Part shown: positions 25,683 to 46,175 of the stretch, one piece after another
How positions within the stretch are numbered: position 1 is the first letter of the stretch
Layout: every line of letters begins with the position of its first letter
Origin: Sinorhizobium meliloti
GTDB taxonomy: Bacteria > Pseudomonadota > Alphaproteobacteria > Rhizobiales > Rhizobiaceae
Length of the DNA: 64,000 nucleotides
Reading direction: 5' to 3'
Assembly: GCF_035610345.1 (NCBI RefSeq)
Contig: NZ_CP141213.1
Span: 248,001 to 312,000 of the forward strand
The notes under the pieces: model-generated
The model's database searches: none
What the model saw: only the letters and a program-made list of their open reading frames with translations
Told to the model about the DNA's origin: nothing
Program-made: the position numbers and the translations under genes

Positions 25683-25740
25683 TCTCACTGAAACCGGTTC
25701 CTGGATCTTCCGCCGACGGCTAGCAGCCCAATTCATGCAG

Positions 25741-25760
25741 GGCATCTTGGACCAAGCCCG
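25741..25760 (-). promoter_or_regulatory. TTGGTCCAA regulatory motif upstream of the FGE gene
   Basis: Minus strand: CTTGGTCCAA core, about 60 bases before the FGE start. It shares the core with motifs at 29408, 33780 and 46154 but is less similar outside it, and the matching -10 (TGCTAG, 22 bases downstream) is weak. Probably a site for the response regulator encoded at 31100-31759. Confidence 0.5.
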
Positions 25761-25903
25761 CGATATTGTCCGCATTCGCCTTTCGATGGAAGGGCTGCAG
25801 GCGGCATAAAATTCCTTGCTGTTGCCGACGCATCGCACCCCTTCGCATCACACGGCTGCTGCGGCGCCGTTCCGGCAAGCCCGGCGCACCGGGGTTCGCG
25901 CCC

Positions 25904-26869
25904 TCAGTCTTCGGCGATCGCCCAAGCGTCGCCCGGGTTGAATGTGCGGATGTCGGCGGCAGTCTTCTCGGTTTCTTCCCCGAGATCCGCTTCGTAGACG
26001 ATGCCGTTGCGGTTGACCACGAAAGTCTTCAGCCCCGAGACGCCGTATCTCACCGGCCAGGCCACCAAGCCGAAGCCGGCGATCATGTTGCCGTTGATGA
26101 CATAGTCGAACTTGCCGCCCGCGATGTTGTCGCCCTGACTTGTCAGGATACGGTAGCGATAACCTTGATAGCCCTGGCCGGCCTTCGCCCGTTCCAAGGC
26201 ATCGCCCTCTGCAAGAGCCGCGGCTGCAGGGCTCTCCTCCCCTTCGAACTTCTCTGCAGGCCAATAGAGCCCGTTCTGCGTACCCTCGTCGCTGATCAGT
26301 TTCTGCGCGTATTCCAGGACGCCGTCGCCGTCGTGATCGCCGAGCGCATATTCCTCCTGTGCTCCGACATAGGCGCGCATGGTGGCTAGCGTCGCCAGTT
26401 CGTTGTCACCGACTCTCCGGTTGGCGATCTCCTCCAGTCCGACAAAGGTGTCGAAGGCCCATTTGCCGTCGTCCCCCTTCGAGATCGGGAAGGGAAACGG
26501 CCACAGCTCGTCGCCGATCTCGAGGACCTTGCGGCCCTCCACTTCCTCGACGACGACCTTCTCCTTCACGCCTTCCTGAATGTCGGCATAGGTCTCCATC
26601 ACCCCTTCGCTCGACCTTGTCTTGGCCGGGTCCAGCCCGACAAGCACTGCGAGCTTGTCGAAATCGCCGCCGGTGACGGTCGTCTTGAAAGCCTCGACCG
26701 CCAGTTCCGGCGTGTCGAAAACGGGCGGATCTTCTGCCGCCGCATAGTCTGCAAGCGGCGTATCCTCACCGGCTTCCTGGGCCAGGACTGCCGGAGCGAG
26801 CGCCGTGCCGCCGAGGAGGATCATCCCGAAGAGCGAGAGAGCGATCCCGTCACGAATGGATTTGGTCAT
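25904..26869 (-). CDS. DUF2950 family periplasmic protein
   Basis: A 321-residue exported protein with a signal peptide ending near VLAQEAG (about residue 31). It matches DUF2950: FDTPELAVEAFKTTVTGGDF at the start of the domain, DGKWAFDTFVGLEEIANRRVG in the middle and QGYQGYRYRILTSQG near residue 225. The family is of unknown function and often encoded beside DUF3300 proteins, as here, 18 bp downstream of it. GGGAGG precedes the ATG. The pair is probably one transcript. An envelope-stress or surface-structure role is only a guess. Confidence 0.85.
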   Translation of the reverse strand: MTKSIRDGIALSLFGMILLGGTALAPAVLAQEAGEDTPLADYAAAEDPPVFDTPELAVEAFKTTVTGGDFDKLAVLVGLDPAKTRSSEGVMETYADIQEGVKEKVVVEEVEGRKVLEIGDELWPFPFPISKGDDGKWAFDTFVGLEEIANRRVGDNELATLATMRAYVGAQEEYALGDHDGDGVLEYAQKLISDEGTQNGLYWPAEKFEGEESPAAAALAEGDALERAKAGQGYQGYRYRILTSQGDNIAGGKFDYVINGNMIAGFGLVAWPVRYGVSGLKTFVVNRNGIVYEADLGEETEKTAADIRTFNPGDAWAIAED

Positions 26870-26887
26870 CCTAGCCTCCCGATCTGA

Positions 26888-28270
26888 TTACCGCCGGCGT
26901 CCGCCGCCACGCTTCACCATCTTGTGCCCACCGCCGCCACGATGACCGCCGCCCATGGAATGGTGGCCGCGGCTGGACGACATGTGGGTTTGCCGCTTGT
27001 TGCCGACCTTGCCGAGCGCCGAGTGCTTGCCGCCGGACGAATGTCGCACGTTGTGTGCACCCGGTTTCGGTGCATGCGCCTTGCGGTGGACGTTCGACCG
27101 TGCGCCTGTGGCCTTGCCTGTGCTTGCACGGGCGCGGTTCGCCGCAGCCCCGCCATCGCGGCGCGGTGCGTCCACACGACGCTGGGCATTGCCCGCCCGC
27201 TCCCGTTCGGCCCGAACGCGGTTCGCATCGACCTTGCTCTTGCGGATGTCGTCGACGGAAACCTTGCTCGGTCTGCGAGCGATTTCGCCTCGGTCGCGGC
27301 GTACGTCCTTCGCCCGGTTGGCGATGTTGTTGTCGCGGTTTGCCTTGAAGTCGTTCGTAAACTTGTCGCGATCGATATTGGCAAACTGATTCTTGTCGAA
27401 CTTGATCTTGGACCGGTCGACATTCTTCCAGTCGACATCGTTCATCTTGAATTTGTCGCGGTCGATATCGATGTCGTTGAAGCAATTGTCGCAGTCGATG
27501 TCGACGTCGCCGTTCCAATGCCCGCCCCAGACGCCCCAGTCGTCCCAGTCGACGGCCGCCGCCCATATCGCAGCCCCGGTGATCGCGGCGGCAAAATAGG
27601 GGGCGGTCGGGTAGTAATAGCTCGGATAGGGATCGGGATAATAGGCGATTGGCGCCGGCGCATAGCCCGGCTCGTAGAGCATTTCCGGCTCGTATCTCGG
27701 GACGTAGATCTTTTCCGGATCCGCCGCCTGGATGACGATGTTGTCGCCTTCGTTGACGACCTTCACCTTGTCGTCGGTCTTGATGACGCCGTCCGCCACC
27801 GCCTTGTCGCGCAGAGTCTGGACCGCGATCAGAACGTCTTTCTGCTGGTAGGCGAGCGCGCTGCCGAGCGCCTGCGTCCAGTCCAGATCGTCGCTCATCA
27901 TCTTGACGATCTCGGGATAGTTGAGAAGCGATATCACGCTGTCGTCCCAGCTCTCCTTCGGCTGCAGCTCCTTGTTCGTCTTCTTCTCTTCGAGGAACCG
28001 CGCCGCCTCCACGATCTGCAATGGAAAGAGCGAAGCGGAGCTGACCAGCGCGACGAGCTCGTCCGGATAGAGCGCGATGCGCGCGACCATGGTTTCGAGC
28101 TCTTCCTCGGTCAGGAGAGCGGGTTGATCATCGCTCGCCTCGCCCGCCTGAGCCTGCGCGGCCTGCTGAGCAAGACCTCGGGGAACCAGGGCCGGACCCG
28201 CAGCCATCAAAATTGCGAGCCCCGCGACACCGATCGGACGGGCGATCAGTCTGAGCAACTCAGTCGGCAT
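26888..28270 (-). CDS. DUF3300 family exported protein with repetitive Asp/Lys and basic tail
   Basis: A 460-residue protein with a signal peptide to about residue 34. Residues 50-235 form the DUF3300 domain (LVALVSSASLFPLQIVEAA and IYVPRYEPEMLYEPGY are typical). After a hydrophobic Tyr/Ala-rich stretch comes a region of short Asp/Asn/Lys-rich repeats (DIDRDKFKMNDVDWKNVDR pattern, about 255-310). The final 130 residues are strongly basic, His/Gly/Arg-rich and low in complexity. The protein is thus an exported domain with a disordered, charge-segregated C-terminus that might bind polyanions such as LPS, DNA or phosphate polymers. DUF2950 follows closely. Function unknown. Confidence 0.85.
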   Translation of the reverse strand: MPTELLRLIARPIGVAGLAILMAAGPALVPRGLAQQAAQAQAGEASDDQPALLTEEELETMVARIALYPDELVALVSSASLFPLQIVEAARFLEEKKTNKELQPKESWDDSVISLLNYPEIVKMMSDDLDWTQALGSALAYQQKDVLIAVQTLRDKAVADGVIKTDDKVKVVNEGDNIVIQAADPEKIYVPRYEPEMLYEPGYAPAPIAYYPDPYPSYYYPTAPYFAAAITGAAIWAAAVDWDDWGVWGGHWNGDVDIDCDNCFNDIDIDRDKFKMNDVDWKNVDRSKIKFDKNQFANIDRDKFTNDFKANRDNNIANRAKDVRRDRGEIARRPSKVSVDDIRKSKVDANRVRAERERAGNAQRRVDAPRRDGGAAANRARASTGKATGARSNVHRKAHAPKPGAHNVRHSSGGKHSALGKVGNKRQTHMSSSRGHHSMGGGHRGGGGHKMVKRGGGRRR

Positions 28271-28404
28271 AGCCTCACTCCCTGCGTTTGCAATCAGCTT
28301 ACGGTCTCGAGCGTCAGCTCAACCTCTCTCTCATGCTTCGCGGGCCGCCATGGCGCCGCTGAACTCGTTGCGAAGCGCTCCGAAGGCTCTTCGCGGGGCC
28401 CACC

Positions 28405-29271
28405 TCACTTCGGGAAAAGGAAGGTGACGGCGAGGCGTGCGCCCCAGCCCTGCGGCCCGTTGTCCGGTGCGGCCGCCCAGTAACGGGCGCCGGCAGTAAT
28501 GCTCACCGGCTGCTCGCCGAACTTGACCAGCTTGGACACCTGGAAGTTGACCGGGACGGACCACTCGTCGCTTTCCCAGTCATAGGTGCTTTCGGTGTTG
28601 AGCGCGAATGTCCAGGCGTCCGGTGTCGTGTAGGAGACGAAGGGCTGCAGGAAGGTCGAGTTGACATCGGCCCTGTCGTCATTGCCTGCGAAGGACCAGA
28701 TGTGATTTGCCAGAGCGCCATAGGTCCAGGGGCCGTCCTGCTTCAAGACGACGGCCGTCGGTCCGATGCCCCATTTCTCGCTGCCGAGCAGATCGTCCGT
28801 GGCTGTCGGAATGAGAAAGACGGGACCGACACCCCAGATGATCCCGCCCGCCGTCGGCTCCTTGGGCGAGAAGAAGAAGCTCTGCACGGTATCGCCCAGT
28901 CCGAACTGATCGCCGGAAGGTCCGGCAATGTCGTCCTGAGAGATGATCGGCAAGATCGTTCGCGAAATCAGGTTCCAGTCTTCATTGAGGCTGACCGGTA
29001 TCACCGGCTGCACGTTCAAGGTGACCCGGTGCCCGTCATCCGGTCCGAAACCACGGTCGTAGTTCAGTTGGAACGGCACGCTGATGAGCGAGGCGATTGG
29101 GTTCGACAACTGCTTGGCGAGGTCGGCGCCGGAGGAATCCTGTGCCTGGGCAACGCCGCAACCCGCCGCGACCGCAATGGCAAGCGCCGCTGCATGCGGG
29201 AAGGTCGGCGCCGATGTTCCTGCCCTACGCACCCGACCTGCTCCTTCGGATCGTTTTCTGTCGAGCGTCAT
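28405..29271 (-). CDS. Outer-membrane beta-barrel transporter-like protein
   Basis: A 288-residue protein with a signal peptide (start region to about GVAQAQDSS, residue 45) and alternating strands from residue 65. The pattern NPIASLISVPFQLNYDRGFG and the closing AVTFLFPK match the group annotated simply as transporter, related to the MetA phenol-degradation barrel family. I choose ATG 29271, with AGGGAGA upstream, over a longer frame to 29310. It lies upstream of the DUF3300/DUF2950 pair (134-bp gap) and is divergent from the HAD phosphatase, with which it shares a control region. Substrate unknown. Confidence 0.75.
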   Translation of the reverse strand: MTLDRKRSEGAGRVRRAGTSAPTFPHAAALAIAVAAGCGVAQAQDSSGADLAKQLSNPIASLISVPFQLNYDRGFGPDDGHRVTLNVQPVIPVSLNEDWNLISRTILPIISQDDIAGPSGDQFGLGDTVQSFFFSPKEPTAGGIIWGVGPVFLIPTATDDLLGSEKWGIGPTAVVLKQDGPWTYGALANHIWSFAGNDDRADVNSTFLQPFVSYTTPDAWTFALNTESTYDWESDEWSVPVNFQVSKLVKFGEQPVSITAGARYWAAAPDNGPQGWGARLAVTFLFPK

Positions 29272-29407
29272 CCAAGATGTCTCCCTGCCTGCACGTCCGT
29301 CCGATTGCAAGAATAACTACCGGACTTCCCTTGGTAGAACGCTAGCGCGGAAAGTAGTTGCACCACTGGCATTACTTGCGGATACGTGGCGAATTGAACA
29401 GCGGCAA

Positions 29408-29454
29408 GTTGGCCTTTGGTCCAACTATCGCTGCTCCGCAAACAGCCGAATGAT
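29408..29454 (+). promoter_or_regulatory. TTGGTCCAA motif and -10 box upstream of the HAD phosphatase gene
   Basis: The motif (29408-29429) reads GTTGGCCT, then TTGGTCCAA, then CTATC, followed after 24 bases by AATGAT (29449-29454) as a likely -10. It lies in the 329-bp divergent gap 29272-29600, which holds nothing else I recognise. The predicted leader to the phosphatase ATG is about 140 bases. The near-symmetric core could also serve the leftward gene. Confidence 0.6.
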
Positions 29455-29600
29455 ATTGTCGGCGTGCGTCTGCGAAGGAATGCCTTTTGCCACTGCTTTC
29501 GATCCGTGGCCGGCATGCCGGCGCGTACATTCGGAAGCCTCGACGTCCTCGTCGCCCAGGGCGTTCGTTCATCGTCAACGTCAGTTCAGGAAGATAGATC

Positions 29601-30602
29601 ATGTTCGAGATCAGCCGCCGCTCGGCCTTGAAAATCGTCGCTTTCACAGCCGCGAGCTCCTCGGTTCGTCATGCACTGGCCGAAGGAACCGAGACCTTGC
29701 CCTCATGGGCCGAGGGTGACGCAAAGGCGCGTATCCTGGAGTTCGTGGCGGCGACGACGACGAAAGGCAGCCCCGATTTCGTCGAGCCTGCGGCCCGCAT
29801 TGCAGTGTTCGACAATGACGGGACGCTCTGGGGCGAACAGCCCATGTATGTGCAGCTCGCTTTCGCGCTCGACCGCGTCAGGCAGCTGGCGCCGCAGCAC
29901 CCGGAATGGCAGACGACGGAACCGTTCAAATCGGTGCTCTCGGGGGACATGGCCGGAGTCGCGGCGAGCGGCGAACGTGGACTGCTGGAACTCGTCGCCG
30001 CAACCCACGCCGGCATGTCCGCCGAGGAATTCGAGAAGATCGTCTCCGATTGGATCGAAGGCTCTCGGCATCCGACATCGGGCAAACCCTATACCGCACA
30101 CATCTTTCAGCCGATGGTCGAACTGATCGACTATCTGAAGGCGAACGAGTTCGCAGTCTTCATCGTCTCGGGTGGCGGGGTGGAGTTCATGCGCCCGTGG
30201 ACTGAACGCGTGTACGGGATCCCCCCGGAAAACGTCGTCGGCTCCAGCATCAAGACCAAGTACGAACTGCGGGACGGCCATCCGGCGATCACGCGTCTGC
30301 CCGAAATCGACTTCATTGACGACGGTCCGGGCAAACCCGTCGGCATCCACAAGTTCATCGGTCGACGGCCGATCGCCGCTTTTGGGAATTCCGACGGCGA
30401 CTTCGAGATGCTGGAATGGACAACCGCCGGCCCCGGACGCAGCTTTGGCCTGATCGTTCACCACGACGACGCGCAGCGCGAAAACGCCTATGATCGCGAC
30501 TCCCATTTCGGCCGCCTCGCACGCGGCCTCGACGAGGCGTCTGCACGCGGCTGGACGATCGTGAGCATCAAGAATGACTGGAAGGTCGTTTACCCGGAGT
30601 GA
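29601..30602 (+). CDS. HAD-superfamily phosphatase, Tat-exported
   Basis: A 333-residue haloacid dehalogenase-type phosphohydrolase. An N-terminal twin-arginine-like signal (EISRRSALKIVAFTAA) suggests periplasmic location. Catalytic motif I, FDNDGTLW, supplies nucleophile Asp71 and acid/base Asp73. Motif II is the Ser of FIVSGGG (about 190), and motif III/IV lies in FGNSDGDFEML. The helical cap between motifs I and II is large, as in phosphoserine-phosphatase-like members. It probably removes phosphate from a periplasmic small molecule; the substrate is unknown. AGGAAGATAGATC precedes ATG 29601. The promoter region carries the TTGGTCCAA motif, tying it to the two-component system next door. 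Confidence 0.85.
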   Translation: MFEISRRSALKIVAFTAASSSVRHALAEGTETLPSWAEGDAKARILEFVAATTTKGSPDFVEPAARIAVFDNDGTLWGEQPMYVQLAFALDRVRQLAPQHPEWQTTEPFKSVLSGDMAGVAASGERGLLELVAATHAGMSAEEFEKIVSDWIEGSRHPTSGKPYTAHIFQPMVELIDYLKANEFAVFIVSGGGVEFMRPWTERVYGIPPENVVGSSIKTKYELRDGHPAITRLPEIDFIDDGPGKPVGIHKFIGRRPIAAFGNSDGDFEMLEWTTAGPGRSFGLIVHHDDAQRENAYDRDSHFGRLARGLDEASARGWTIVSIKNDWKVVYPE

Positions 30603-30683
30603 GTGAGCGATAACCGGAAGGCGGAGCGTCTCTCATGGAAAATGCACTTCCGGAGGGAAAACAACCCATTCCGTCCATCGGGT

Positions 30684-31085
30684 CTATCTGGAGCGCGGCG
30701 CCGATATCGGGCGCCGATCGTCTCGCAGGCCATCGATGGCCGCTGACAGCGAGGCGCGGGAGAGCGGCTTGTTGAGGAAACCCGCAGCGCCCGCGCGCAT
30801 GCAGCTCTCACGCACCCCCTCTTCATCCGCGCCGCTTATGACGATTACGGCGAGCCTTGGCTGCCTTCCCCTGAGCTCGTGCAATATGTCGAGCCCATTC
30901 ATGTTCGGCATGTGAAAATCAAGGAGTACGCAGGACGGCTTGGCCTCTTCGAGTTCTTCGAGGAACATTTCGCCCGAGGCGAACGCCACCGGCTTGAAGG
31001 ACAGCGACAGCACGAGTCGACAAAGCGCGCGACGAACCAGCTCGTCGTCATCGACAATGGCAATGATACGCTGACCCTCGCTCAT
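30684..31085 (-). CDS. Stand-alone receiver-domain response regulator
   Basis: A 133-residue single-domain response regulator with acidic pocket Asp12-14, phospho-acceptor Asp56 (LLDFHMP), Ser near 83 (VIVISGA) and Lys near 105 (FLNKPLS). No output domain follows. It is the last gene of the kinase/regulator cluster, 14 bp after the LuxR-type regulator. It may act as a phosphate sink or as a protein-protein output, as single receivers do in other rhizobial systems. A weak TTGGGACCAA element lies at 31128-31137 just upstream. Confidence 0.88.
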   Translation of the reverse strand: MSEGQRIIAIVDDDELVRRALCRLVLSLSFKPVAFASGEMFLEELEEAKPSCVLLDFHMPNMNGLDILHELRGRQPRLAVIVISGADEEGVRESCMRAGAAGFLNKPLSRASLSAAIDGLRDDRRPISAPRSR

Positions 31086-31099
31086 CCATCATTCATATA

Positions 31100-31759
31100 T
31101 CAAGGCCCTGGCTGATCGTAGTTGGACTTGGGACCAATGCCCCCGGCAGGAGGGTCTGCAACAGCGACCAGGCGAACAAGGTCGGCGACCGTTCGTACGC
31201 CCAGTTTCGCCATCATGCGGCCCCGGTGAACCTTGATGGTCTTTTCGACCGTCCCGAGATCGGCCGCTATCTGCTTGTTGAGAAGGCCGGCCACGACAAG
31301 ATGCATGACCTGCGTTTCCCGGGTGGTCAGGCTTTCGAGCCGCCTCACCACGCTCGCCTTCTTCTCTTCCGTCTCACGCCAGGAGCGTGCGCGCTGGCGC
31401 GCTACGTTTACGGCAGCCAGCAGCGTCTCCGCCTCGACGGGCTTCGTCAGGAAGTCGACGGCACCCGCCTTCATCGCACGCACACTTGCCGGGATATCGC
31501 CCCTGCCCGTCAGGAAAACGATGGACTGGCTTCCGCCAGCCGCAGCGAGTGCCTCCTGCACGCGAAAACCGTCGGAGTCCGGCAGACCTAGATCCAGTAT
31601 GACGCAATCGGCCGTGTGGAGATCCTCGGATGCCAGGAACGCGCGGGCATCCCGGTACACCGTCACCAGGTAACCCGAAGCCGAGAGCAGCCTCCTCAGA
31701 GACCGCAGCACGGATTCGTCGTCGTCCAGCAGCAGTACTTTTCCGGCGTTTTCCCCCAT
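31100..31759 (-). CDS. FixJ/NarL-type two-component response regulator
   Basis: A 219-residue regulator. The receiver domain (1-120) has Asp12-14, phospho-acceptor Asp56, Thr84 and Lys106 (FLTKPVE). The C-terminal LuxR-type helix-turn-helix (about 148-203) reads LTTRETQVMHLVVAGLLNKQ, then KTIKVHRGRMMAKLG. The overall pattern is that of FixJ. It lies 9 bp downstream of the sensor kinase gene. It is the only DNA-binding member of this cluster and so the best candidate for binding the near-palindromic TTGGTCCAA motifs found around it. Confidence 0.9.
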   Translation of the reverse strand: MGENAGKVLLLDDDESVLRSLRRLLSASGYLVTVYRDARAFLASEDLHTADCVILDLGLPDSDGFRVQEALAAAGGSQSIVFLTGRGDIPASVRAMKAGAVDFLTKPVEAETLLAAVNVARQRARSWRETEEKKASVVRRLESLTTRETQVMHLVVAGLLNKQIAADLGTVEKTIKVHRGRMMAKLGVRTVADLVRLVAVADPPAGGIGPKSNYDQPGP

Positions 31760-31768
31760 AAGACACCT

Positions 31769-33604
31769 CTAGGCTGACGGCAGAATGACCACGGCCCGCG
31801 CTCCCCGCTTCACGGCATCGTCGAAGAACAACTTCCCGCCCTGCGCCTCGACGATGCTCCGGCAGATGGCGAGGCCGAGACCGAGGCCGCCTTTCTTCGA
31901 GCTCACAAACGGCTTGAACACCTCGCTGCGCATCTCAGCGGGAATGCCGGGTCCCATGTCCTCGACGGACAATTCACAATACCCATTCTTGCCTTTCGCA
32001 ACCGCTATTTCAACCCGCCGTTGCTTTGGCGGGATGTCAGCCATCGCATCCGCCGCATTCACGAGCAGGTTCAGGATCACCTGCTGAAGCTGAACGAGGT
32101 TGGCCTTGACGCGCACGCTCGCCCATTCATCCTGGACCTCCACCTCGGTGCGGCGCGCCACCATCTCTGCCCGCGCCAAAGCGACGGTCTGGCGTACGGC
32201 CTCGTTGAGGTCGAGGATTTCCTGTGAGGCCTCACCCTTCAGCATCATGCTGCGCAACTGCGAAATCACCGAGGAGGCGCGTCTGTCGTCTGCGACGATA
32301 TCATCGAAGATCGCACGGATTTCTTCCATGTCCGGGGCCGGCTCGCTGGCGATCTTCTGCCCCGCCTCGGCGTTGGCGAGAATGGAGGTAAGCGGCTGCG
32401 TCAGTTCATGCGCGAAGGCGCCGGAGAGTTCTCCGAGTTGCGACCGTCTGGAAAGGTGTGCAAGCTCGATACGTTCGGAGGCGAGCGTCGCTTCGAGCCT
32501 CCGACCCCGCTGGTTCTGGTAGACGAGCGCGGCGATCGTCAGCATTTGCGCCGCCATCACGAGGAGTGCCGCGCTGATGGGCATGCGGTAACGCTCCCAG
32601 GCGCTTGGCTCGAAGCCCACGATTTCTGCGCCGTCGGGTATCAGAATATCGTCGATCCCCCAATGCTGGACTGCGCCCCAATCGACGACCGCCGCCTCCC
32701 GTGCGGGGGTGGTCTGCGGCGCCGAATGATCACCGAGCACGATGTCGAGCGAAAGCGCCGCCATCTGCGCTCCGGTGGACTGGAACGTGCCCACGTGACC
32801 GCCCACGACTTTCGAGCCGAAATAGGAACCATAGACCGAGTAGACGGGCGCATTCGATGCTTCCGTTATCGCGGCTGCCGCGTCGCGAGGAACGAATTTC
32901 GTGCCCTCGGCATCCTCAAAGACGGTGAGTATGACGAGGGCCGTGTCGGAGGAAAGGCCGGCGGCCGTGCTCCGGAAGCCGTCGAGCGAGAGACCGGAGA
33001 CATATTCGACGTCGAGGCCGGCGTAACGCTTCCCCAGCACGGCGAACGCGGTGTCGCCCCATCGCCGGTCGAACGGCGCCGAGCCGTACATCACCGTCAG
33101 CTTGCGTGCCTGCGGCTGAAGACGACTGGCCAGTTGAACGGTCTTGGCCAGATCGAATCGGCTGATCACGCCCTTGACGTCGGCGGGAAGGCTCCCGGGG
33201 GCCGCGGAACTCTCCGTGACCGCACCGAAGACGACGGGGACGTTCCTGGCGAAACGCTCACGAGTCTCCACGACGAATCGTAGCGCTCCGGGTCCCGCGG
33301 CCACCACGACATCCAGGTCCAACGGCCGGTATTTAGCCTCCAGAAAACTTGCAAGCCGGGCTCGGTGCTCCGCCGTTGAAAAGCGAAGGGTGTCGAGATA
33401 TTCCGTATAGTATTCGATGTGTTCCGGCGCGTTCGCTTCCATATACTCGTGGAAGCCCGAGGCGATCTGCTCGGCGGCAAGGAGCGTACTTTCGCTTTCA
33501 TAGACCAGCAGCACGCGCTTGGGATGATCGGCACGGCCACCAAAAGCCATCGCCAACAGCACAAACAAACTAAGAATGACCGCTCGCGGTCGAAGTCGCA
33601 GCAC
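31769..33604 (-). CDS. Sensor histidine kinase with periplasmic ABC-binding-protein-like domain
   Basis: A 611-residue kinase. A signal/membrane anchor at residues 5-22 is followed by a periplasmic domain (about 28-335) resembling ABC substrate-binding proteins of the PF04392 type (RVLLVYESESTLLAAEQIA; VVVAAGPGALRF). One membrane helix is at about 341-363. The kinase core has the H-box GAFAHELTQPLTS (His399), then N-box NLLVNAADAM, G1 DMGPGIP and G2 GGLGLGLAI. ATP- and His-dependent phosphotransfer to the two downstream regulators is expected. I prefer GTG 33604, preceded by GGGGGG and giving a clean signal segment, over TTG 33664, which has no site. The ligand is unknown. Confidence 0.88.
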   Translation of the reverse strand: MLRLRPRAVILSLFVLLAMAFGGRADHPKRVLLVYESESTLLAAEQIASGFHEYMEANAPEHIEYYTEYLDTLRFSTAEHRARLASFLEAKYRPLDLDVVVAAGPGALRFVVETRERFARNVPVVFGAVTESSAAPGSLPADVKGVISRFDLAKTVQLASRLQPQARKLTVMYGSAPFDRRWGDTAFAVLGKRYAGLDVEYVSGLSLDGFRSTAAGLSSDTALVILTVFEDAEGTKFVPRDAAAAITEASNAPVYSVYGSYFGSKVVGGHVGTFQSTGAQMAALSLDIVLGDHSAPQTTPAREAAVVDWGAVQHWGIDDILIPDGAEIVGFEPSAWERYRMPISAALLVMAAQMLTIAALVYQNQRGRRLEATLASERIELAHLSRRSQLGELSGAFAHELTQPLTSILANAEAGQKIASEPAPDMEEIRAIFDDIVADDRRASSVISQLRSMMLKGEASQEILDLNEAVRQTVALARAEMVARRTEVEVQDEWASVRVKANLVQLQQVILNLLVNAADAMADIPPKQRRVEIAVAKGKNGYCELSVEDMGPGIPAEMRSEVFKPFVSSKKGGLGLGLAICRSIVEAQGGKLFFDDAVKRGARAVVILPSA

Positions 33605-33779
33605 TGTGCCCCCCGGCCGTACTCCATGCTTCCGCCAACCGGCCGATAGAATAAAGCCAAACAATCATGTCAAGCTGATGACTATTTACCGTTGTGCGGC
33701 CTGCTTGACTCAATTGCAAGCCATGAAGTTTTGGGGGTATTCGAGCCACCGCCGGCAGCCGGAAAAACGGCGGACCCGA

Positions 33780-33826
33780 GTTGGCCCTTGGTCCATCTAT
33801 CACTCATCCCGAAAATCGCTGATGGA
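33780..33826 (+). promoter_or_regulatory. TTGGTCCAT motif and -10 region upstream of the membrane protein gene
   Basis: GTTGGCCC, then TTGGTCCAT, then CTATC at 33780-33801 matches the 29408 motif at 20 of 22 bases. The -10-like GATGGA (or overlapping GATAAA) begins 24 bases downstream. The predicted start is about 50 bases before ATG 33884. Its place between the divergent kinase and membrane-protein genes would also allow autoregulation of the kinase operon. Confidence 0.6.
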
Positions 33827-33883
33827 TAAATTACGGGCTCGTCGGCATATGCGAGTGCCGGTCCCGTTTTTGAGCGATGAACT

Positions 33884-35116
33884 ATGGTGGTCATGAGCGT
33901 GAACGGTGCTGCACATCCGTCGGCGGATAATGACGCGGTAGGGAACTCCCCATCTGCCGGCCTCGCCAATTTTCGCGCATCGCATGGCGGACCCTTTTTC
34001 GAGTTGCAGGCGCAGCTGAGGCTGCTGCGGGAAAACACGCTTCGGGCGGGAACGAGAGCCGTTCTCTTCGTTGCACTGGCCTGGGGCGTGCCATTCCTGC
34101 TCGGCATTCCGCGCAGCTTCTCCCTTGACCACAGCCACAACGCCTATCTCGCCGATCCCGGAGTATGGGCGAAATTCTTCATCGGCATCGGCTCCTTCGT
34201 TCTGGCGGAGCAGCAGGTCGAACGGGGTCTCAGGGCTCGGCTGGCGCAGTTCGTGCGTGCTCCGATAATCGCGCCGACCGCGATGGCCCAGGCCACGCGC
34301 GAACTGTCGGAGGCGCTGCGTCAACGCGACTCGCGACGTGCGGAACTCGTATGTCTCGTGGTCGCAATCTTCGCCGCAGCCCTTTCCTACCTCAACTTCC
34401 ATACGGTCGACGTTTCCTCCTGGGCGGTCGAGCACCGGCCCGAAGGCAACAGGATTTCTGCGGCCGGCTGGTGGTCGATCTGCGTCAGCCTTCCCCTCTT
34501 CGTCTTTCTCTTTCTCAGGGGCATGTGGCGGCACCTCGTCTGGGCGCACCTTTTGCGCCGTATCGCCGGGCTCGACCTTCGGCTGGTGGCGACCCATCCG
34601 GACGGAAAGGGCGGATTGGCCTTCATCGCCCGATACCCGAACGCCTACGTCTTCTTCGTCTTCGGAATGAGTTCGGCAATTGCGGCCGCAATTGCAAAGA
34701 ACCTCCTCCAGGAGGGTCTCTCCATGACGACGTTCAGCATGGTCATGACCGGCTGGCTCGCAATCGTCATCGCCTTTTTCGCCTATCCGCTTTCGGCCTT
34801 CACGCCTCCGCTCTCCCGCCTGAAGCAAGACGGCCTGGCATTGCTCGGCGCCCAAGCGACACGCTACCACCGGGCCGCCGAACGCAATGCGGTTGGCCGC
34901 AACATCTTCGAGGACCCTACGCCAGAGCCGGCAGACGACATTGCAGATCCGAGCAAGCTGTTCGATGCGACGCAGAAGCTCAAGACGGTGCTGGTCAGCC
35001 GCGCGGCGGTGGTGCCGGTGGCTGCAGCAGCGCTCATTCCCTTTGCCGTCGCCGGCGCGACGAAACTACCCTACAAGGAGGTTTTCTCAGTGATGAAGAA
35101 GCTGCTCCTCCTTTGA
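33884..35116 (+). CDS. Integral membrane protein of unknown function (410 aa)
   Basis: The protein has a polar N-terminus, then hydrophobic segments at about residues 60-77, 95-110, 150-165, 195-212, 260-280 and 285-305, and again near the C-terminus (VVPVAAAALIPFAVAGATK, about 380-400). An amphipathic charged stretch rich in Arg/Glu lies between helices 2 and 3. No family is recognised. A start at 33893 (MSVNGAAH) is also possible. It is divergent from the kinase genes, carries the TTGGTCCAA-type motif in its promoter, and precedes the MoxR operon by 425 bp. Confidence 0.7.
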   Translation: MVVMSVNGAAHPSADNDAVGNSPSAGLANFRASHGGPFFELQAQLRLLRENTLRAGTRAVLFVALAWGVPFLLGIPRSFSLDHSHNAYLADPGVWAKFFIGIGSFVLAEQQVERGLRARLAQFVRAPIIAPTAMAQATRELSEALRQRDSRRAELVCLVVAIFAAALSYLNFHTVDVSSWAVEHRPEGNRISAAGWWSICVSLPLFVFLFLRGMWRHLVWAHLLRRIAGLDLRLVATHPDGKGGLAFIARYPNAYVFFVFGMSSAIAAAIAKNLLQEGLSMTTFSMVMTGWLAIVIAFFAYPLSAFTPPLSRLKQDGLALLGAQATRYHRAAERNAVGRNIFEDPTPEPADDIADPSKLFDATQKLKTVLVSRAAVVPVAAAALIPFAVAGATKLPYKEVFSVMKKLLLL

Positions 35117-36513: not shown

Positions 36514-36528
36514 TCGGGAGGACTTGCG

Positions 36529-37524: not shown

Positions 37525-38046
37525 ATGGACCCGAGCCCCGCGCCCGATCCGATGCTCGACGCCACCTTGCGGCAGATGGCCGATATCGCATTGCCGCCGC
37601 ACGTATCGATGATGCCGGCCACCTGGGGCTGGGCAGCGCTCATCACGGCGGTCGCGCTCGTCCTCGCCTCGGTGCTCTGGCGCTGGCTCCGCCGACGCGC
37701 ACGGAACCGTTATCGCCGGGAGGCGCTTGCGGAACTCTCCTATCTGGAGAAGGCCATCGACACGTCGGCCGGGCGCAGACACGCCTTGCAAAGCCTGCCC
37801 GCGCTTCTCAAGCGCACTGCGCTCGCCGCCTGGCAGAGGGAAACGGTCGCCTCCCTCAGCGGTGAAGGTTGGTCCGATTTCCTCCGCGCACATGCAGGTA
37901 CGGCAAGGCTGGATGACGAAGCCTATCTTTTCTTCGCCGAGAGCGAATACCGCCCATCGGCGCTAGCCTCGACGGACGAGGCTACGACGCGTCGGAGCCT
38001 CGCGGCGGCACGCCAATGGATCGAGGCCCACGATGTACGTCCTTGA
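37525..38046 (+). CDS. DUF4381 membrane protein of the MoxR operon
   Basis: A 173-residue protein: a short cytosolic N-terminus, one membrane helix (about 35-52, WAALITAVALVLASVLW), an Arg-rich stop-transfer segment, and a C-terminal helical domain with the motif GEGWSDFLRAHAG. This matches DUF4381, found in Bat (Bacteroides aerotolerance-like) operons. It directly abuts the DUF58 gene and overlaps batA by 14 bases, so expression is coupled. Probably anchors the MoxR/VWA complex in the membrane. Confidence 0.87.
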   Translation: MDPSPAPDPMLDATLRQMADIALPPHVSMMPATWGWAALITAVALVLASVLWRWLRRRARNRYRREALAELSYLEKAIDTSAGRRHALQSLPALLKRTALAAWQRETVASLSGEGWSDFLRAHAGTARLDDEAYLFFAESEYRPSALASTDEATTRRSLAAARQWIEAHDVRP

Positions 38047-40602: not shown

Positions 40603-41948
40603 TGACCCCAGCGTCCCGTTTGTGCCGGCTCGTTGCAGCGCTGTTCTGCTGGGTCGCTGCCGCCGGTCCGGCCCTGTCCGCCGATCCGCTCGCCCGGGCC
40701 GCATTGCAGTCGGAGGGAACGCTCTATGCCGGTCAGCAAATTCTCATAGACGTCGACGTGCTTGTCCCGAATTACTTCCTGCAGCCACCGCAATTCCCCG
40801 CGATCGACCTGCCGGGCGCGATGGTGACGCTTGATGACGGGCGGGCGCTCAACCTCAACGAGACGATCGACGGGACGGCTTACTCGGGCATTCGCCGCAC
40901 CTATATCGTCACGGCTCAATCGCCGGGCGATTTCACCCTGCCTCCTGCCGTGATCACTTTCGGCTATGCGGCAGTACCCCCTCAGGCCACTCGCGGCGAA
41001 GTTACGCTTCCACCGCTTCGCTTCACCGTCCGGGAAGCACCCGCGAATGCCGGAGAACGTCCCGGTGTGGTCGCCGCAAAGGTCAGCATCAGCCAGGAGC
41101 TCGATCGGGATCCGGCAGCTTTGAAGGCGGGAGACACACTGGTCCGGACGATCGCCGTGCGCGCCGTAGGCCTTCGCGCCATGATGATCCCCGAGCCGGA
41201 TTTTTCAGCCCCGGACGGGGTACGCCTCTACCGGCAGGATCCCGCACTTTCGGAAGAAACGGACCGCAACGGCCAGTCAATTGCGGGTATCCGCAAGGAT
41301 GTTGCAAGCTATCTCTTCCGGGAGCCCGGCACCTATGTCCTGCCCGCGGTGGCCCTGAGCTGGTTCGACCCGGCCTCCGCGGCGACGGAATCGGCAAGCG
41401 CACCCGCCATAGGCGTGACCGTCGCAGCCGCGGCCTCCCACTCCCCGGCCATCGCGCCTCCGGCGGCCGAGCCGCAACGCCCGCCCTTCGACTGGCTGCG
41501 GCTGGCTGTGATCGGCGGTGGCGTGTTGCTCACTGCCCTCGTCCTTTGGGCTTCGGCCAACGGACTGAGCCGGCTGGAAGCATGGTGGCAGGAACGCCGC
41601 TCGAAAGAGCGGCAATCGGAGCCGGCATTTTTCCGTCAGCTGGAGCAGGCCTGCAGGAGCGGCTCGGACGAGGCCATCGCGCGCGCGCTCAACGCCTGGT
41701 CTCGCAAGGCGGGAGTGATGCCGCTCGAATTCTGGCTCGACCGATTTGCCGACGCCGAAACGCAGCAGGTCTACCGGACCCGGCAGGGAGCGCTTTACGG
41801 CCTTGCGAAGGCATCTTCCCCGCCGGTGCGCGGAGACCTGCTCCTTCCGGGGCTGAAAAAGGCACGGAAGATCTGGCTGACTCAAGGAGAGAAGGCGCCC
41901 CGACGCCGCGAGCCCGCCTTGCACCCACTCAACCCGACCATGCCCTGA
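40599..41948 (+). CDS. BatD-like membrane protein
   Basis: A 449-residue protein with a signal peptide (to about SALSADP, residue 27), a large beta-rich periplasmic domain (30-300) that fits the BatD/oxygen-tolerance family, and one membrane helix at about 305-325 followed by a cytosolic tail with helices (QLEQACRSGSDEAIARALNAW). ATG 40599 overlaps the preceding stop as ATGA. Last gene of the MoxR/Bat operon. The periplasmic domain probably forms a complex with the VWA proteins. Confidence 0.87.
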   Translation: MMTPASRLCRLVAALFCWVAAAGPALSADPLARAALQSEGTLYAGQQILIDVDVLVPNYFLQPPQFPAIDLPGAMVTLDDGRALNLNETIDGTAYSGIRRTYIVTAQSPGDFTLPPAVITFGYAAVPPQATRGEVTLPPLRFTVREAPANAGERPGVVAAKVSISQELDRDPAALKAGDTLVRTIAVRAVGLRAMMIPEPDFSAPDGVRLYRQDPALSEETDRNGQSIAGIRKDVASYLFREPGTYVLPAVALSWFDPASAATESASAPAIGVTVAAAASHSPAIAPPAAEPQRPPFDWLRLAVIGGGVLLTALVLWASANGLSRLEAWWQERRSKERQSEPAFFRQLEQACRSGSDEAIARALNAWSRKAGVMPLEFWLDRFADAETQQVYRTRQGALYGLAKASSPPVRGDLLLPGLKKARKIWLTQGEKAPRRREPALHPLNPTMP

Positions 41949-42095
41949 TACGAAGAATGCGAAACCGGGTCGTCTCTATCGATGCGTCGGTGCGATGTGC
42001 AGGCGTGCTACTATGCCGGAAGGGATTCGAGGGAGATCACACGTCCTTTTCCTCGTCCTCTCTTGGGCGCTGAATCTGTGGGGAGGTGGCATTAA

Positions 42096-44075
42096 GTGCA
42101 GTATCTCAAAGTGAATATGCCGGTATTCGTGGGTTCGGTGGGCGTCATCGCTCTGTTCGTCGGGATAGGTGTGATTGCGCCTAAGAGAGCTGAAGCGATT
42201 TTCAGCGGAATGCAATCTGCGATCCTGTCCGGTTTCGGTTGGCTCTACCTGCTCGCGGTCGCGATCTTTCTGTTTTCGATGCTCTTTTTGGCGTTCAGCC
42301 GCTACGGCGAGCTGAAGCTCGGGCCGGACGATTCAGAACCCGAATTCAGGTACCTGTCCTGGATCGCCATGTTGTTCGCCGCCGGCATGGGCATTGGCCT
42401 CATGTATTTTGCCGTCGGCGAGCCGATGACGCATTTTGCTTCGCCGCCGGAAGCCGAACCGCTGACGATCGCAGCCCAGCGCGAGGCAATGAGCGTGACC
42501 TTCTTCCATTGGGGCGTGCACGCCTGGGCGATATACTCGGTCGTCGGGCTGTCACTCGCCTATTTCGGATACCGTTACAACTTACCCCTGACCGTCCGAT
42601 CCGGCCTCTACCCGCTCCTCAAGGAGGGTATTCACGGGCCGATCGGACATGTCGTGGATATTTTCGCGATCTGCGGGACAATGTTCGGGCTCGCAACCTC
42701 GCTCGGATTCGGAGTCCTTCAGATAAACTCCGGACTGAACTATCTGTTGGGTGTCCCCCAGTCGATCTACGTCCAGCTCCTGCTCGTGACCGTGGTCACG
42801 GCAATAGCGACCGTTTCGGTGGTCAGCGGCGTCGAGAAGGGTGTCCGCATTCTCAGCGAGACCAATCTGTTCCTGGCAGTACTGCTGATGCTCTTCGTGC
42901 TCGTGGTCGGACCGACGGGCACGCTCATGCGCGACTTCGTCCAGAACATCGGTCTCTACCTCGATAGCCTGGTTTTGCGAACCTTCAACATCTATGCCTA
43001 TGAGCCGCGCCCGTGGATCGACAGCTGGACCCTGTTCTATTGGGCATGGTGGATTTCCTGGTCACCCTTCGTCGGCATGTTCATCGCGCGCATTTCCCGT
43101 GGGCGCACCGTGAGAGAGTTCGTCACCGCCGTCCTCTTCGTACCCGCCCTTTTCACTTTCCTCTGGATGACGGTCTTTGGAAACACGGCGATCTACGTGG
43201 ACACGACGATCGCCAATGGCGAGCTGGCGCGTGACGTGAAGGCGGACCTTTCGGTCGCCCTTTTCCAGTTCTTCGAATATCTGCCGTGGCCCGCGGTAAC
43301 CTCGACGCTCGCGGTTCTGCTCGTCAGCATATTCTTCGTGACCTCCAGCGACTCCGGCTCGCTGGTGATCGACACGATTGCGTCCGGCGGCGAAACGGCG
43401 ACACCTGCTCTTCAGCGGATTTTCTGGTGTTCCCTCAGCGGTATCGTGGCGGCCGTTCTGCTCTCCACCGGCGGGCTGACGGCACTCCAATCCGCCACGA
43501 TCTCCACGGCACTGCCGTTCAGCTTCGTGATGCTCATTCTGGTTTGGTCGCTGTTCGTCGGGATGCGGGCCGATCTCGCCCGCACACAATCACCGGGATC
43601 GGTCGGTCCGAGAGCCTATCCCGCGTCCGGTGTGCCCTGGCAGCGGCGGCTGGCGATGACCTTGAGCACGCCGGACAAACGGGCGGTGGAGAAATTCCTG
43701 CAAGCCTCCGTGCTCCCGGCACTGGAGGCAGTGGCCAAGGAACTGACGCGCCGGTCCCGGCCGGCTTCGGTCGATCGGGATGCCGAAACGGGAGCACTGA
43801 CCCTCACGGTTCCGGCCGAAGGCCATCGCGATTTCGTCTATGGGGTGCAAATGTCGGAACACAAACTTCCGGCATTCACCGCGCACGACGCAACCGTGGC
43901 AGATGTCCGCTACGAGGCGCGCACGTTCTTTTCGGACGGTAGCCGCGGCTATGACATCATGGGAATGGCGGACAACCAGATCATCAACGATGTTCTGTTT
44001 CAGTTCGAACGATACACGGGCTTCGTACGGTCCCCGGCGTCCTCGCTGCTGGCGACCTCGCCCGAAGAGCAATAG
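42096..44075 (+). CDS. BCCT-family betaine/choline/carnitine transporter with C-terminal regulatory domain
   Basis: A 659-residue transporter with twelve expected membrane segments, starting at a GTG (42096) that follows GGGAGG at proper distance; ATG 42117 is the fallback. The conserved BCCT stretch is complete: [15 protein letters not shown] early and [20 protein letters not shown] then [12 protein letters not shown] in the helix 7-8 region, including the aromatic box. The final ~140 residues are a soluble BetT-like tail, linked in relatives to osmotic regulation. It takes up a quaternary ammonium compound with Na or H. It starts 147 bp after the Bat operon. Choline, betaine or choline-O-sulfate are all possible. 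Confidence 0.92.
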
Positions 44076-44277
44076 AGCACTTCCAGAGACCTTGCGCGTC
44101 TGTGCTTGTCACAGAGATCCAGCAGCGCCGCGTCTGCGGCGCGGGAAGCGTTCTTTCAGCCCAAGGACTTGGTCTGGCTCGATCCTGTGACGAGCACAGG
44201 GATAAGGCGATCGAACGAGACGCAGCGGGTGGCCCGAATCTCAACAGGCCTTGGAACATTGCCAGGAAGTCCGAAAA

Positions 44278-44307
44278 GGAAAGGCGGAGGCTTCCCCCCG
44301 CCTTTCC
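44278..44307 (-). terminator. Terminator for the arylsulfatase gene
   Basis: On the minus strand GGAAAGGCGG (44307-44298) pairs with CCGCCTTTCC (44287-44278) around a ten-base loop and is followed by TTTTCGG. It lies 94-123 bases past the sulfatase stop in the convergent 325-bp gap 44076-44400. The same gap has a GCGCCGC/GCGGCGC hairpin at 44125-44142 that may end BCCT transcripts. No gene is seen in the gap. Confidence 0.7.
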
Positions 44308-44400
44308 CGAAGATCGCAATATGGCTGGAATATGCGATCCTCGTTACTCGTCTGCATTGCCCACCCTACTGGCGATGGCGGCGGGCTTCGAAGACGTGCA

Positions 44401-46059
44401 TCAACGCGGCGCCAGGCTTTCCAACTCTCCGAGCCGCTTGAGCGCGGCCTGCTGTTGCAGCCAGGTATAGCTGATACCGCTGGCGTTCAGAGTGCTGCCC
44501 GGCTGGTAGGGATACTGGTCGAAGTCCTGGAAGAACTCCTTGATCTTGCCCTGGATCGGCACCAGGAGCCACATGTTTCGGGCGATGAAATCCATGGCCC
44601 CTCCCCCTTCTTTTGCACCTCGCTCATAGGGATCCATTCTCAGATTGGTAATATTGGCCCAGCTCGGCGTCTCGCGGGTGGCCGTGGCGATGTTGCCTTC
44701 ACTGTTGATTGCGAAGCTGAGTTTCCAATCGTTCCACCGGATCGCATTCAGGTTGCCGCCCTGGTCGAAATAGTAGACCGCTTCGCGGGGCGGTTCCTTG
44801 GACTGGCCCTCCAGGAGCGCGGTGAGGTCGTAGCCGTCGAGATGGACCTTGAAGTTCTTGTCGCCAGACTGGAAGCCCGTCTTCATCTGCTCCTTGACGT
44901 CGGGGACACCGGCGGCGGCCGCGAAGGTCGGCATCCAGTCCATCAGGGTCACGGGATCGTTGATCTGCGTGCCCGGTTTCACCACGCCCGGCCAGCGCAC
45001 CATCATAGGAATGCGGAAACCACCTTCCCAGGTTGTGCCCTTTTCCCCATGGAACATGGTCATCGCGCCATCCGGCCACAAAGCGAGCTCGGCGCCGTTG
45101 TCGGTGGTGTAGAGCACAATCGTGTTTTCGGTGATGCCGAGGTCGTCGAGCTGCTGCAGAAGCTGGCCGACATGGCCGTCATGCTCCACCATGCCGTCTG
45201 CGTGGATGCCCTTGCCCGTCTTGCCCAAGGATTCCGGCTTCAGATGGGTGAACACGTGCATGCGCGTCGAGTTGAACCAGCAGAAGAACGGCTTGTCGGC
45301 CTTTGCCTGACGATCGATGAAATCCTTCGCGGCCGCGAGGAACTCCTCGTCGACGGTCTCCATGCGCTTGGTGTTGAGCGCTCCGGTGTCTTCGATCTTA
45401 CCGTCCGCGCTCGATTTGATGACTCCGCGTGGCCCGAAATTCTTCCGGAACTCCTCGTCCTTCGGGTAGAAGTAGCCTTCCGGCTCCTCTTCGGCATTCA
45501 GGTGGTAGAGGTTGCCGAAGAACTCGTCGAAGCCGTGGTTCGTCGGCAGGTGCTCGTCGCGGTCCCCCAGGTGATTCTTGCCGAACTGGCCGGTTGCGTA
45601 TCCCTTGGACTTCATGACGTCGGCGATGGTCGGCATCCAGTCTTGAATGCCGTGCGGGTCGCCGGGCATCCCGATCGTCAGCAGCCCCGTGCGGAACGGT
45701 TCCTGGCCGAGAATGAAGGAGGCACGCCCTGCGGTACAGCTCTGCTGCCCGTAAGCATCGGTGAAGATCGCGCCCTCGGCGGCGATACGATCGATGTTCG
45801 GCGTGCGATAACCCATTAGGCCCATGGTGTAGGCGCTGATTTGCGGAATGCCGATGTCGTCGCCGAAGATGACGAGGACGTTCGGCGGCTTGCCGGTGTT
45901 TGCCACCGGTTGCTCCTGAGCCTTCGCGCTGCCCACGGCCACGGCCCCGTTTGCCGCAGCAGCAGCTGCAAGGATCGTACCGCCCAGCAGGAGGCTCCGA
46001 CGATCTATAGAGATCGATTCTTGCGCATTTTTGCGCTTTTCAGCATCTGGAAGGCCCAT
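44401..46059 (-). CDS. Arylsulfatase, formylglycine-dependent, Tat-exported
   Basis: A 552-residue type I sulfatase. A twin-arginine signal (SIDRRSLLLGGTILAAA, about 17-33) sends it folded to the periplasm. Metal ligands include Asp67-Asp68 in FGDDIG. The activation motif CTAGR (Cys108 to Arg112) is converted from Cys to formylglycine. Further catalytic residues occur in GKNHLG and YTTDNGAEL. The Cys-type motif with Ala at position 3 needs an FGE, and a fully conserved one is encoded at 24717-25682. The promoter has the TTGGTCCAA motif. It probably releases sulfate from organic sulfate esters; the natural substrate is unknown. Confidence 0.9.
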   Translation of the reverse strand: MGLPDAEKRKNAQESISIDRRSLLLGGTILAAAAAANGAVAVGSAKAQEQPVANTGKPPNVLVIFGDDIGIPQISAYTMGLMGYRTPNIDRIAAEGAIFTDAYGQQSCTAGRASFILGQEPFRTGLLTIGMPGDPHGIQDWMPTIADVMKSKGYATGQFGKNHLGDRDEHLPTNHGFDEFFGNLYHLNAEEEPEGYFYPKDEEFRKNFGPRGVIKSSADGKIEDTGALNTKRMETVDEEFLAAAKDFIDRQAKADKPFFCWFNSTRMHVFTHLKPESLGKTGKGIHADGMVEHDGHVGQLLQQLDDLGITENTIVLYTTDNGAELALWPDGAMTMFHGEKGTTWEGGFRIPMMVRWPGVVKPGTQINDPVTLMDWMPTFAAAAGVPDVKEQMKTGFQSGDKNFKVHLDGYDLTALLEGQSKEPPREAVYYFDQGGNLNAIRWNDWKLSFAINSEGNIATATRETPSWANITNLRMDPYERGAKEGGGAMDFIARNMWLLVPIQGKIKEFFQDFDQYPYQPGSTLNASGISYTWLQQQAALKRLGELESLAPR

Positions 46060-46127
46060 GCTTCACTCCTTGATTAAACTTGTACGTTCGAAGCCATGCG
46101 GGATCCGCGCACTCTGGAGCCCGCATG

Positions 46128-46175
46128 ATTATCGGCCGAAGCATCTGGCGAGAGAAGTTGGACCAAGGGGCAACG
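46128..46175 (-). promoter_or_regulatory. TTGGTCCAA motif and -10 box upstream of the arylsulfatase gene
   Basis: Minus strand: GTTGCCCC, then TTGGTCCAA, then CTTCTC (46175-46154), followed after 25 bases by GATAAT (46133-46128). The leader to ATG 46059 is about 60 bases. It lies in the 406-bp divergent gap 46060-46465, which contains no gene or other clear element; the SPW gene's own promoter was not identified. Confidence 0.65.

Follow-up and report, generated by a model that had tools for sequence, protein, structure and literature searches.

Comparison with described two-component systems

The arms recognised by NarL read TACYNMT. In the NarX/NarL system of Escherichia coli, the regulator belongs to the REC and GerE-type family, its dimer binds a site in which 2 bp separate a pair of 7-bp arms, and a single such 7-2-7 site centred at -44.5 suffices for NarL to activate ogt derivatives, as described in the available part of the source (PMC7419079). 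Similarly, StyR of the Pseudomonas StyS/StyR system activates from the inverted site STY2 at about -40, according to the accessible text of its description (PMC2442086). Here, a 64,000-nucleotide stretch of Sinorhizobium meliloti (contig NZ_CP141213.1, positions 248,001 to 312,000; hereafter the window) was analysed, in which four 16-bp inverted repeats of the 7-2-7 layout were found at the predicted promoters of sulfatase, HAD phosphatase, membrane-protein and lone receiver genes, around genes for a FixJ/NarL-type response regulator (31100-31759) and a sensor histidine kinase (31769-33664). Two-component regulons of the 7-2-7 type are known; the one proposed here has a hitherto unlinked gene set. 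The window lies on contig C2 (1.82 Mb) of a 6.63-Mb genome in four contigs, and replicons of S. medicae and S. meliloti were its nearest named relatives (81-84% identity, best 10 matches in a plasmid collection).

The regulator was assigned to the FixJ/NarL type by PF00072 (84.2 bits, cut-off 30.2) and PF00196 (64.7 bits, cut-off 23.5). Its best solved relative was 1yio (E 7.3e-44), which we take to be StyR, and 5xso matched at E 1.9e-35. The likeness to StyS/StyR, a system of styrene catabolism, was drawn from regulator structure and site position. In NCBIfam, the regulator stayed below the equivalog cut-offs for NarL (NF007935, 68.8 of 250 bits), FixJ (NF006900, 176.5 of 255 bits) and TtrR (tetrathionate; NF040749, 164.1 of 290 bits), and the locus also differs from NarX/NarL in operator letters, kinase input and genes. 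The pair resembles FixL/FixJ of rhizobia in its FixJ-like regulator and FixL-like kinase core, whereas the core reached 134.3 bits against a curated cut-off of 850 and a predicted periplasmic binding-protein fold replaces the haem PAS domain.

The kinase belongs to the histidine kinases by PF02518 (78.3 bits, cut-off 26.4), with PF00512 just under its cut-off (26.5 against 26.9 bits). Since a model of the whole kinase matched only kinase cores in the top rows, the sensor domain (residues 46-352), which Pfam did not place, was modelled alone. The model assigned it to the binding-protein fold, with 3lft (with L-Trp by its title) and CD0873 as the closest solved relatives, suggesting candidate ligands.

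Adjacent DUF3300 and DUF2950 genes of root nodule bacteria, of no known function, reportedly showed induction in two RNA-seq studies of symbiosis, and the same paper states that their gene neighbourhood offered no further clue (PMC4653623). The pair is likewise adjacent in the window, but here FGE, sulfatases and a two-component operator are linked with it, so that a regulator and an operator, together with predicted transcript starts, can now be proposed for a cluster carrying these symbiosis-induced genes. No description of this regulon was found in open-licence PMC by words or by operator letters; of 154 papers containing one of the operator strings, none of the 15 listed dealt with bacterial regulation by title and abstract.

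A 7-2-7 operator in the window

The operators, their -10-like hexamers and the regulatory proteins are as follows.

29409..29424: operator 1, TTGGCCTTTGGTCCAA, between the HAD gene (+) and the outer-membrane-like-DUF3300-DUF2950-FGE unit (-); 23.7 bits, best in the window
31122..31137: operator 2, - strand reads TTGGTCCCAAGTCCAA, lone-receiver promoter; 20.5 bits
33781..33796: operator 3, TTGGCCCTTGGTCCAT, between the membrane-protein gene (+) and the kinase gene (-); 16.5 bits
46158..46173: operator 4, - strand reads TTGCCCCTTGGTCCAA, sulfatase promoter; 22.2 bits
29449..29454, +: -10-like AATGAT, HAD promoter, axis+33
33821..33826, +: -10-like GATGGA (weak hexamer), membrane-protein promoter, axis+33
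46128..46133, -: -10-like GATAAT, sulfatase promoter, axis+33
31092..31097, -: -10-like TATGAA, lone-receiver promoter, axis+33, with 6 bases between it and the ATG
31100..31759, -: response regulator of the FixJ/NarL type, putative binder of the dyads
31769..33664, -: sensor histidine kinase, start coordinate uncertain, outer domain predicted to resemble periplasmic binding proteins
30684..31085, -: lone receiver protein, PF00072
25747..25755, -: fourth site of an earlier note, rejected as operator, one arm only

With high confidence, the operator can be described as the 16-bp dyad TTGGnCC-NN-GGTCCAA, and its four copies in the window as real at the sequence level. An earlier note on this DNA had proposed that a shared promoter element joins these genes into a regulon, which the present analysis supports: its three long sites (29408-29429 (+), 33780-33801 (+) and 46154-46175 (-)) are exact matches to GTTGSCCYTTGGTCCAWCT, with all quoted letters present. 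The TTGG-N-CCAA symmetry proposed with them gave way to the 7-2-7 dyad, whose axis lies three bases upstream, because the arms persist in relatives while the central two bases vary, as in TTGCCCC-AA-GGTCCAA (genomes G017, G401 and G297), TTTCCCC-AA-GGTCCAA (G099) and TTGGACC-TA-AGTCCAA (locus L105); with AA, TA or CA instead of the central TT, the dyad stays and the 9-mer palindrome is gone. What had been taken for a weaker element at 31128-31137 is part of the strong dyad of operator 2, which overlaps the 3' end of the regulator gene.

Chance or coding constraint, with a common 9-mer merely happening to precede several genes, is a most improbable source of the shared sequence, and for the four dyads it is already contradicted. 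Judged by its density, the 9-mer TTGGTCCAA alone is near-random genome-wide (25 copies vs 15 of the reversed control), and at up to two mismatches it falls below shuffles in the window (79 vs a mean of 112.5). The full dyad is not random, the 17-mer TTGNCCNWWGGTCCAWC occurring at four places in the own genome and at 16 over 33 genus genomes, with none for the reversed control. GTTGSCCYTTGGTCCAWCT at up to three mismatches was found at 8 places in the whole genome vs 6 for the reversed control, and the sole further match with fewer than three (C1:33259, one mismatch) lies upstream of a second sulfatase gene, whose product is 55-61% identical to that of the window by stretch aligned. On the side of chance stand also the FGE-side copy, which looks fortuitous, and a dyad before a sulfotransferase-like gene (our own label; G000:C2:1528228), rejected as chance since it is intact in only two of five genus genomes (G000 and G100) and broken or lost in G019, G017 and G025 although its flanks are kept. 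Against it stand the sites at second sulfatases outside the cluster, the constant -10 and ATG spacing, and the searches of distant loci and simulated windows given below.

Among 162 upstream regions of 34 loci, TTGnnCC-NN-GGnnCAA, in which half-site position 4 was left free, gave 42 matches in 22 loci at up to one mismatch in ten, compared with at most 10 matches for any of 29 alternative orders of these letters and at most 3 for other spacers (0, 1, 3-7). In the 27 loci with a kinase of at most 48% identity, it ranked first of 1024 half-sites (25 matches in 15 loci). The 34 loci comprised 31 with an adjacent kinase-regulator pair and three continuation stretches (L067, L069 and L070), and the 27 included three of the window's genus with a distant kinase (L074-L076); 80 of 565 confirmed loci were kept from the contig scan. 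L105 and L244 are likely of the same lineage, L071 and L240 are near-identical, and L105 was excluded from structure alignments because its kinase frame holds stops. Mismatch-tolerant dyad scans of loci were run at 4/19 and 1/10. Moreover, a matrix built from 12 sites of genera other than that of the window, yet recognised by the pattern first seen in the window, placed the four window dyads first (23.7, 22.2, 20.5 and 16.5 bits), the fifth match scoring 6.9 bits. None of 200 Markov-simulated windows held four matches at 16.5 bits or more, and 7 held at least one. The own genome was searched by pattern, and the matrix was applied to fetched own-genome loci up to L206, with one best match each.

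Promoter geometry

The match to TATAAT, scored at 13 promoters of sulfatase, HAD and membrane-protein genes, peaked 33 bases from the dyad axis (axis+33; 3.54 of 6 vs a mean of 1.36, standard deviation 0.51, offsets 13-60), and the promoters showed a -10 box with no good -35 box by eye. The hexamers reported earlier at 24, 24 and 25 bases after the core are present, but all start 24 bases after TTGGTCCAA/T, that is, at axis+33. With the hexamer taken as -12 to -7, the dyad axis therefore lies at -44.5, and the former placement of the motif at about -60 to -40 is corrected to a predicted dyad centre near -44.5. At the level of sequence, the locus thus belongs to the regulons with a 7-2-7 operator (7-bp inverted arms, 2-bp spacer, near -44.5).

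Conservation upstream of orthologues had been set beforehand as a test, and the dyad is kept there. In intergenic alignments, invariant columns made up 16/16 of the dyad and 5/6 of the -10 vs 53/207 elsewhere at the membrane-protein promoter (6 loci), 16/16 and 5/6 vs 53/212 at the HAD promoter (5 loci, in one of which a sulfatase gene takes its place), and 15/16 and 6/6 vs 34/257 at the sulfatase promoter (4 loci); the dyad invariance is partly due to selection, the sequences having been anchored on dyad letters, and the -10 invariance is free of that.

Repressor sites usually overlap the -10 or +1, which counts against the unlikely alternative that the regulator binds the dyads but represses, or activates some promoters and represses others, for example by blocking the divergent kinase promoter. 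Two dyads do sit between divergent genes, with no conserved -10 facing the kinase, and StyR, a related regulator, activates and represses from different sites in the available part of its description (PMC2442086); however, the constant -44.5 geometry at four promoter classes equals the position from which NarL activates ogt, as far as the accessible text of the source shows (PMC7419079). Autoregulation of the kinase-regulator operon was rejected, as no conserved -10 was found in that direction.

In 13 of the 18 loci of the receiver group, the lone receiver ATG stands at axis+45 (11 loci, including the window) or axis+44 (2 loci), 8 of the 13 being Sinorhizobium. A dyad with two mismatches was found at +45 in L241 and L243 and at +46 in L104, and no clear dyad in L107. 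In other groups, the receiver starts 82-148 bases from the axis in L116, L118 and L122, and the rest are without a dyad. The ATG therefore stands where +1 is predicted, and the receiver mRNA is probably leaderless. In S. meliloti 1021, 171 leaderless starts have been mapped, all AUG, according to the available part of that study (PMC3616915). A possible though less favoured alternative is that the mRNA of kinase and regulator also serves for translation of the receiver, the constant 44-45 bp then having some other cause: from the first base of the regulator stop codon to the receiver start is 15 bases in the window, so that read-through translation is possible, and the -10 match of receiver promoters is weak, but the spacing also holds where the gap between regulator stop and receiver start is 65-168 bases (L072, L105, L121 and L245). 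In L242 (G141, 3961-4100), the ATG is at axis+45 and the receiver frame is off by one just behind it, through a sequencing error or a real frame break.

Co-occurrence with the kinase and identity of the binder

In the genus, TTGNCCNWWGGTCCAWC was present in 5 of 33 genomes, the same five that carry a close kinase (identity 100% in G000, 85% in G025, 83% in G019, 80% in G017, and 98% over the part seen in G100); the other 28, with distant kinases only (best full-length 37%), had no site. All 16 places adjoin a regulon-type gene, and the two outside the cluster (G000:C1 and G019:C40) each precede a second sulfatase gene. Across an order sample of 397 genomes, the pattern was found in 12 and its reversed control in 4, the chance level; the matches comprised the own genome, G401 and G297, in both of which the site lies between kinase and sulfatase genes, and nine without a regulon-type neighbour within 1.5 kb, bar one generic kinase stretch. 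In an equal-size order sample, the kinase (E 1e-100 or better) was found in nine genomes: the own one, six with an identity of 42-50% and two with 33%. Each genome of the 42-50% class carries a dyad at the kinase/sulfatase or receiver promoter. In the 33% class, a related dyad lies downstream of the kinase in one genome, and the other genome is without a dyad.

Conversely, no dyad was found within 500 bp upstream of the sulfatase orthologues of G009 (88%) and G005 (85%), both without a close kinase (best 4-5 mismatches; a sulfatase fragment in G006 was left out of this judgement), or in the upstream regions examined of more distant sulfatase homologues. Upstream of sulfatase genes in G009, G005 and G002, which lack this kinase, L215, L216 and L217 have a common element, GTAACnGTTACGTA, and another regulator may thus act on the sulfatases of these genomes.

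Furthermore, half-site base 4 (G vs T) tracks the recognition helix of the neighbouring regulator: it was G in 68, C in 12 and T in none of the half-sites beside KVHRxR regulators, G in none, C in 6 and T in 18 beside KAHR regulators, and C in 5 and G in 1 at the remaining loci, so that the G/T split is complete, the half-sites of related loci not being independent. Owing to this covariation and the co-occurrence, the LuxR-type regulator at 31100-31759, already favoured in the earlier note, is the likely binder of the dyads. It is rather improbable that the dyads are real operators of another regulator encoded elsewhere, the neighbouring one having other targets. Relatedness of the covariation loci means that the base-4 pattern could partly reflect shared ancestry, but sites and close kinase are present or absent together across the genus and order samples, base 4 follows the helix of the neighbour, and the receiver gene, the regulator's own neighbour, carries the operator at a fixed distance.

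Two perfect dyads, TTGTCCC-AT-GGGACAA, were seen between the regulator and receiver genes of Bradyrhizobium (L116, 12439-12454; L118, 12510-12525); they are a TTGT version of the operator, and their neighbours are unlike the window's sulfatase genes.

Several observations weigh against a regulator that acts through these dyads. The gene set occurs without such a dyad in six loci with KVHR[HR] helices, none was found in L108 and L126 (KAHR) or within one mismatch in L104 (KVHRxR), and no motif of their own was found for the six loci and L108. The operator is not shared by the whole of the wider kinase family. A third sulfatase homologue of the own genome (55%, C1:2674714) is without a dyad, and most own-genome sites lie in one cluster of common ancestry. 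At the receiver and FGE promoters (n=8), the -10 peak is weaker and lies at +34 (2.75, vs 2.62 at +33), the -10 towards the outer-membrane-like unit is weak, and a conserved one towards the kinase is missing. With 17.7 bits, the unconserved C2:1528228 dyad outranks operator 3, and L187, L198 and L204 of the own genome reach 15.5, 15.5 and 15.1 bits; score alone therefore cannot split real from chance sites genome-wide, and single matches need orthologue checks. The dyads of L187 and L198 (1502-1517 in each; G000:C1:724039 and C2:565473) share a wider context, GGACCTTt...GGACCAAGGTCC(G/T)ATA, and could be sites for a different regulator with a similar preference.

Target genes and proposed mechanism

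The candidate targets in the window are as follows.

29601..30602, +: HAD phosphatase, PF12710, twin-arginine-like N-terminus, target
33884..35116, +: membrane protein under operator 3, target
44401..46059, -: sulfatase, PF00884, CTAGR motif, twin-arginine-like N-terminus, target
28405..29310, -: outer-membrane-like protein (our own label), first gene of the leftward unit, probable target
26888..28270, -: DUF3300 protein, PF11737 (163.1 bits), probable target
25904..26869, -: DUF2950 protein, PF11453 (293.9 bits), probable target
24717..25679, -: formylglycine-generating enzyme (FGE), PF03781, final gene of the leftward unit, probable target, with the start conserved among orthologues (alignment from residue 1)

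The genes for FGE, DUF2950, DUF3300 and the outer-membrane-like protein lie on the - strand and are followed by the HAD gene (+), by the lone receiver, regulator and kinase genes (all -), by the membrane-protein gene (+), and further on by a MoxR/Bat-type set, a BCCT-type transporter gene and the sulfatase gene (-), these labels being our own assignment with the S. medicae annotation also used. The outer-membrane-like protein had no Pfam match and has a 90% identical counterpart in G025; the membrane protein had no Pfam or NCBIfam match. FGE belongs to its family by PF03781 (270.6 bits, cut-off 23.3), with the activity predicted, and the sulfatase to its own by PF00884 (163 bits, cut-off 25) and the Cys-type motif in QQSCTAGR, staying below the NCBIfam model for choline sulfatase (TIGR03417, 74.9 of 433.45 bits).

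The earlier note had let each of four sites face a gene, which stands for the HAD, membrane-protein and sulfatase genes but not for FGE, which lacks an operator of its own. The fourth site (25741-25760) is present, but has only one arm, and TTGGTCCAA is absent from the DUF2950-FGE gap in all six relatives (two near-identical), where the best dyad has two mismatches in L238 and three to four in the others. FGE is instead probably reached as the last of four same-strand genes behind the 29409 dyad. This dyad, kept in five aligned Sinorhizobium loci, stays beside the outer-membrane-like unit whether the other neighbour is HAD, sulfatase (S. medicae) or neither (ABS7), and on this ground the unit is regarded as a probable target. 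Dyads at the promoters of the cluster number five each in S. medicae WSM419 (pSMED01) and ml29, and three each in S. meliloti HM006 (pSymB) and ABS7 (pSymA), where the sulfatase promoter fell at the margin of the retrieved sequence or beyond it.

Taking operator, -10 spacing, conservation, kinase co-occurrence and recognition-helix covariation together, the best explanation overall, and one that we consider probable, is that a phosphorylated two-component regulator activates promoters via the 7-2-7 dyads. The kinase and regulator would form a two-component system, and the phosphorylated regulator would bind as a dimer to TTGGnCC-NN-GGTCCAA near -44.5 and activate the sulfatase, the second sulfatase (C1), the HAD phosphatase, the membrane protein and the lone receiver, and probably also the outer-membrane-like-DUF3300-DUF2950-FGE unit. 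FGE would mature the sulfatases in the cytoplasm, forming formylglycine at CTAGR before export, which would place sulfatases and their maturase under one switch, and the lone receiver, whose probably leaderless mRNA would be switched on by the regulator itself, could act in feedback by draining phosphate. The signal may, at a guess, be a small periplasmic ligand linked to sulfate esters. The reading predicts four 16-bp sites, a -10 at constant spacing, a receiver mRNA without a leader, and a shift in specificity (half-site base 4; KVHR vs KAHR helix). A tentative and rather doubtful extension is a sulfate-ester regulon of plant-associated Alphaproteobacteria, in which the kinase would sense a plant- or soil-derived aromatic ligand via an outer domain resembling aromatic-amino-acid binding proteins and would call up export-ready sulfatases and their maturase, plus a leaderless mRNA for a phosphate-draining lone receiver that ends the response, operator letters and recognition helix drifting together between lineages.

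Further observations on the cluster

The DUF2950-FGE gap of the window (25690-25895), inside which the rejected fourth site lies, resembles a decayed small coding region: in relatives it is readable as a peptide with NADKxxxLxQDA, and in the window it seems frame-broken. S. medicae-type loci hold an extra sulfatase gene (51-52% identity to the window's) between the outer-membrane-like and HAD genes (L237, 19622-21289; L240, 19631-21214; L071, 11017-12600), the extra sulfatase and HAD genes each having their own dyad. For the BCCT-type transporter gene of S. meliloti HM006 (L238, 34039-35493), matches came in broken pieces only. In addition, related kinases (30-39%) of Bradyrhizobium (L125, L127, L128, L131, L133, L134, L139 and L142) are encoded no more than about 5 kb from a DUF3300-DUF2950 pair, in most cases with no full regulator gene next to them, and the tie between this type of kinase and the DUF pair is therefore wider than the sulfatase cluster.

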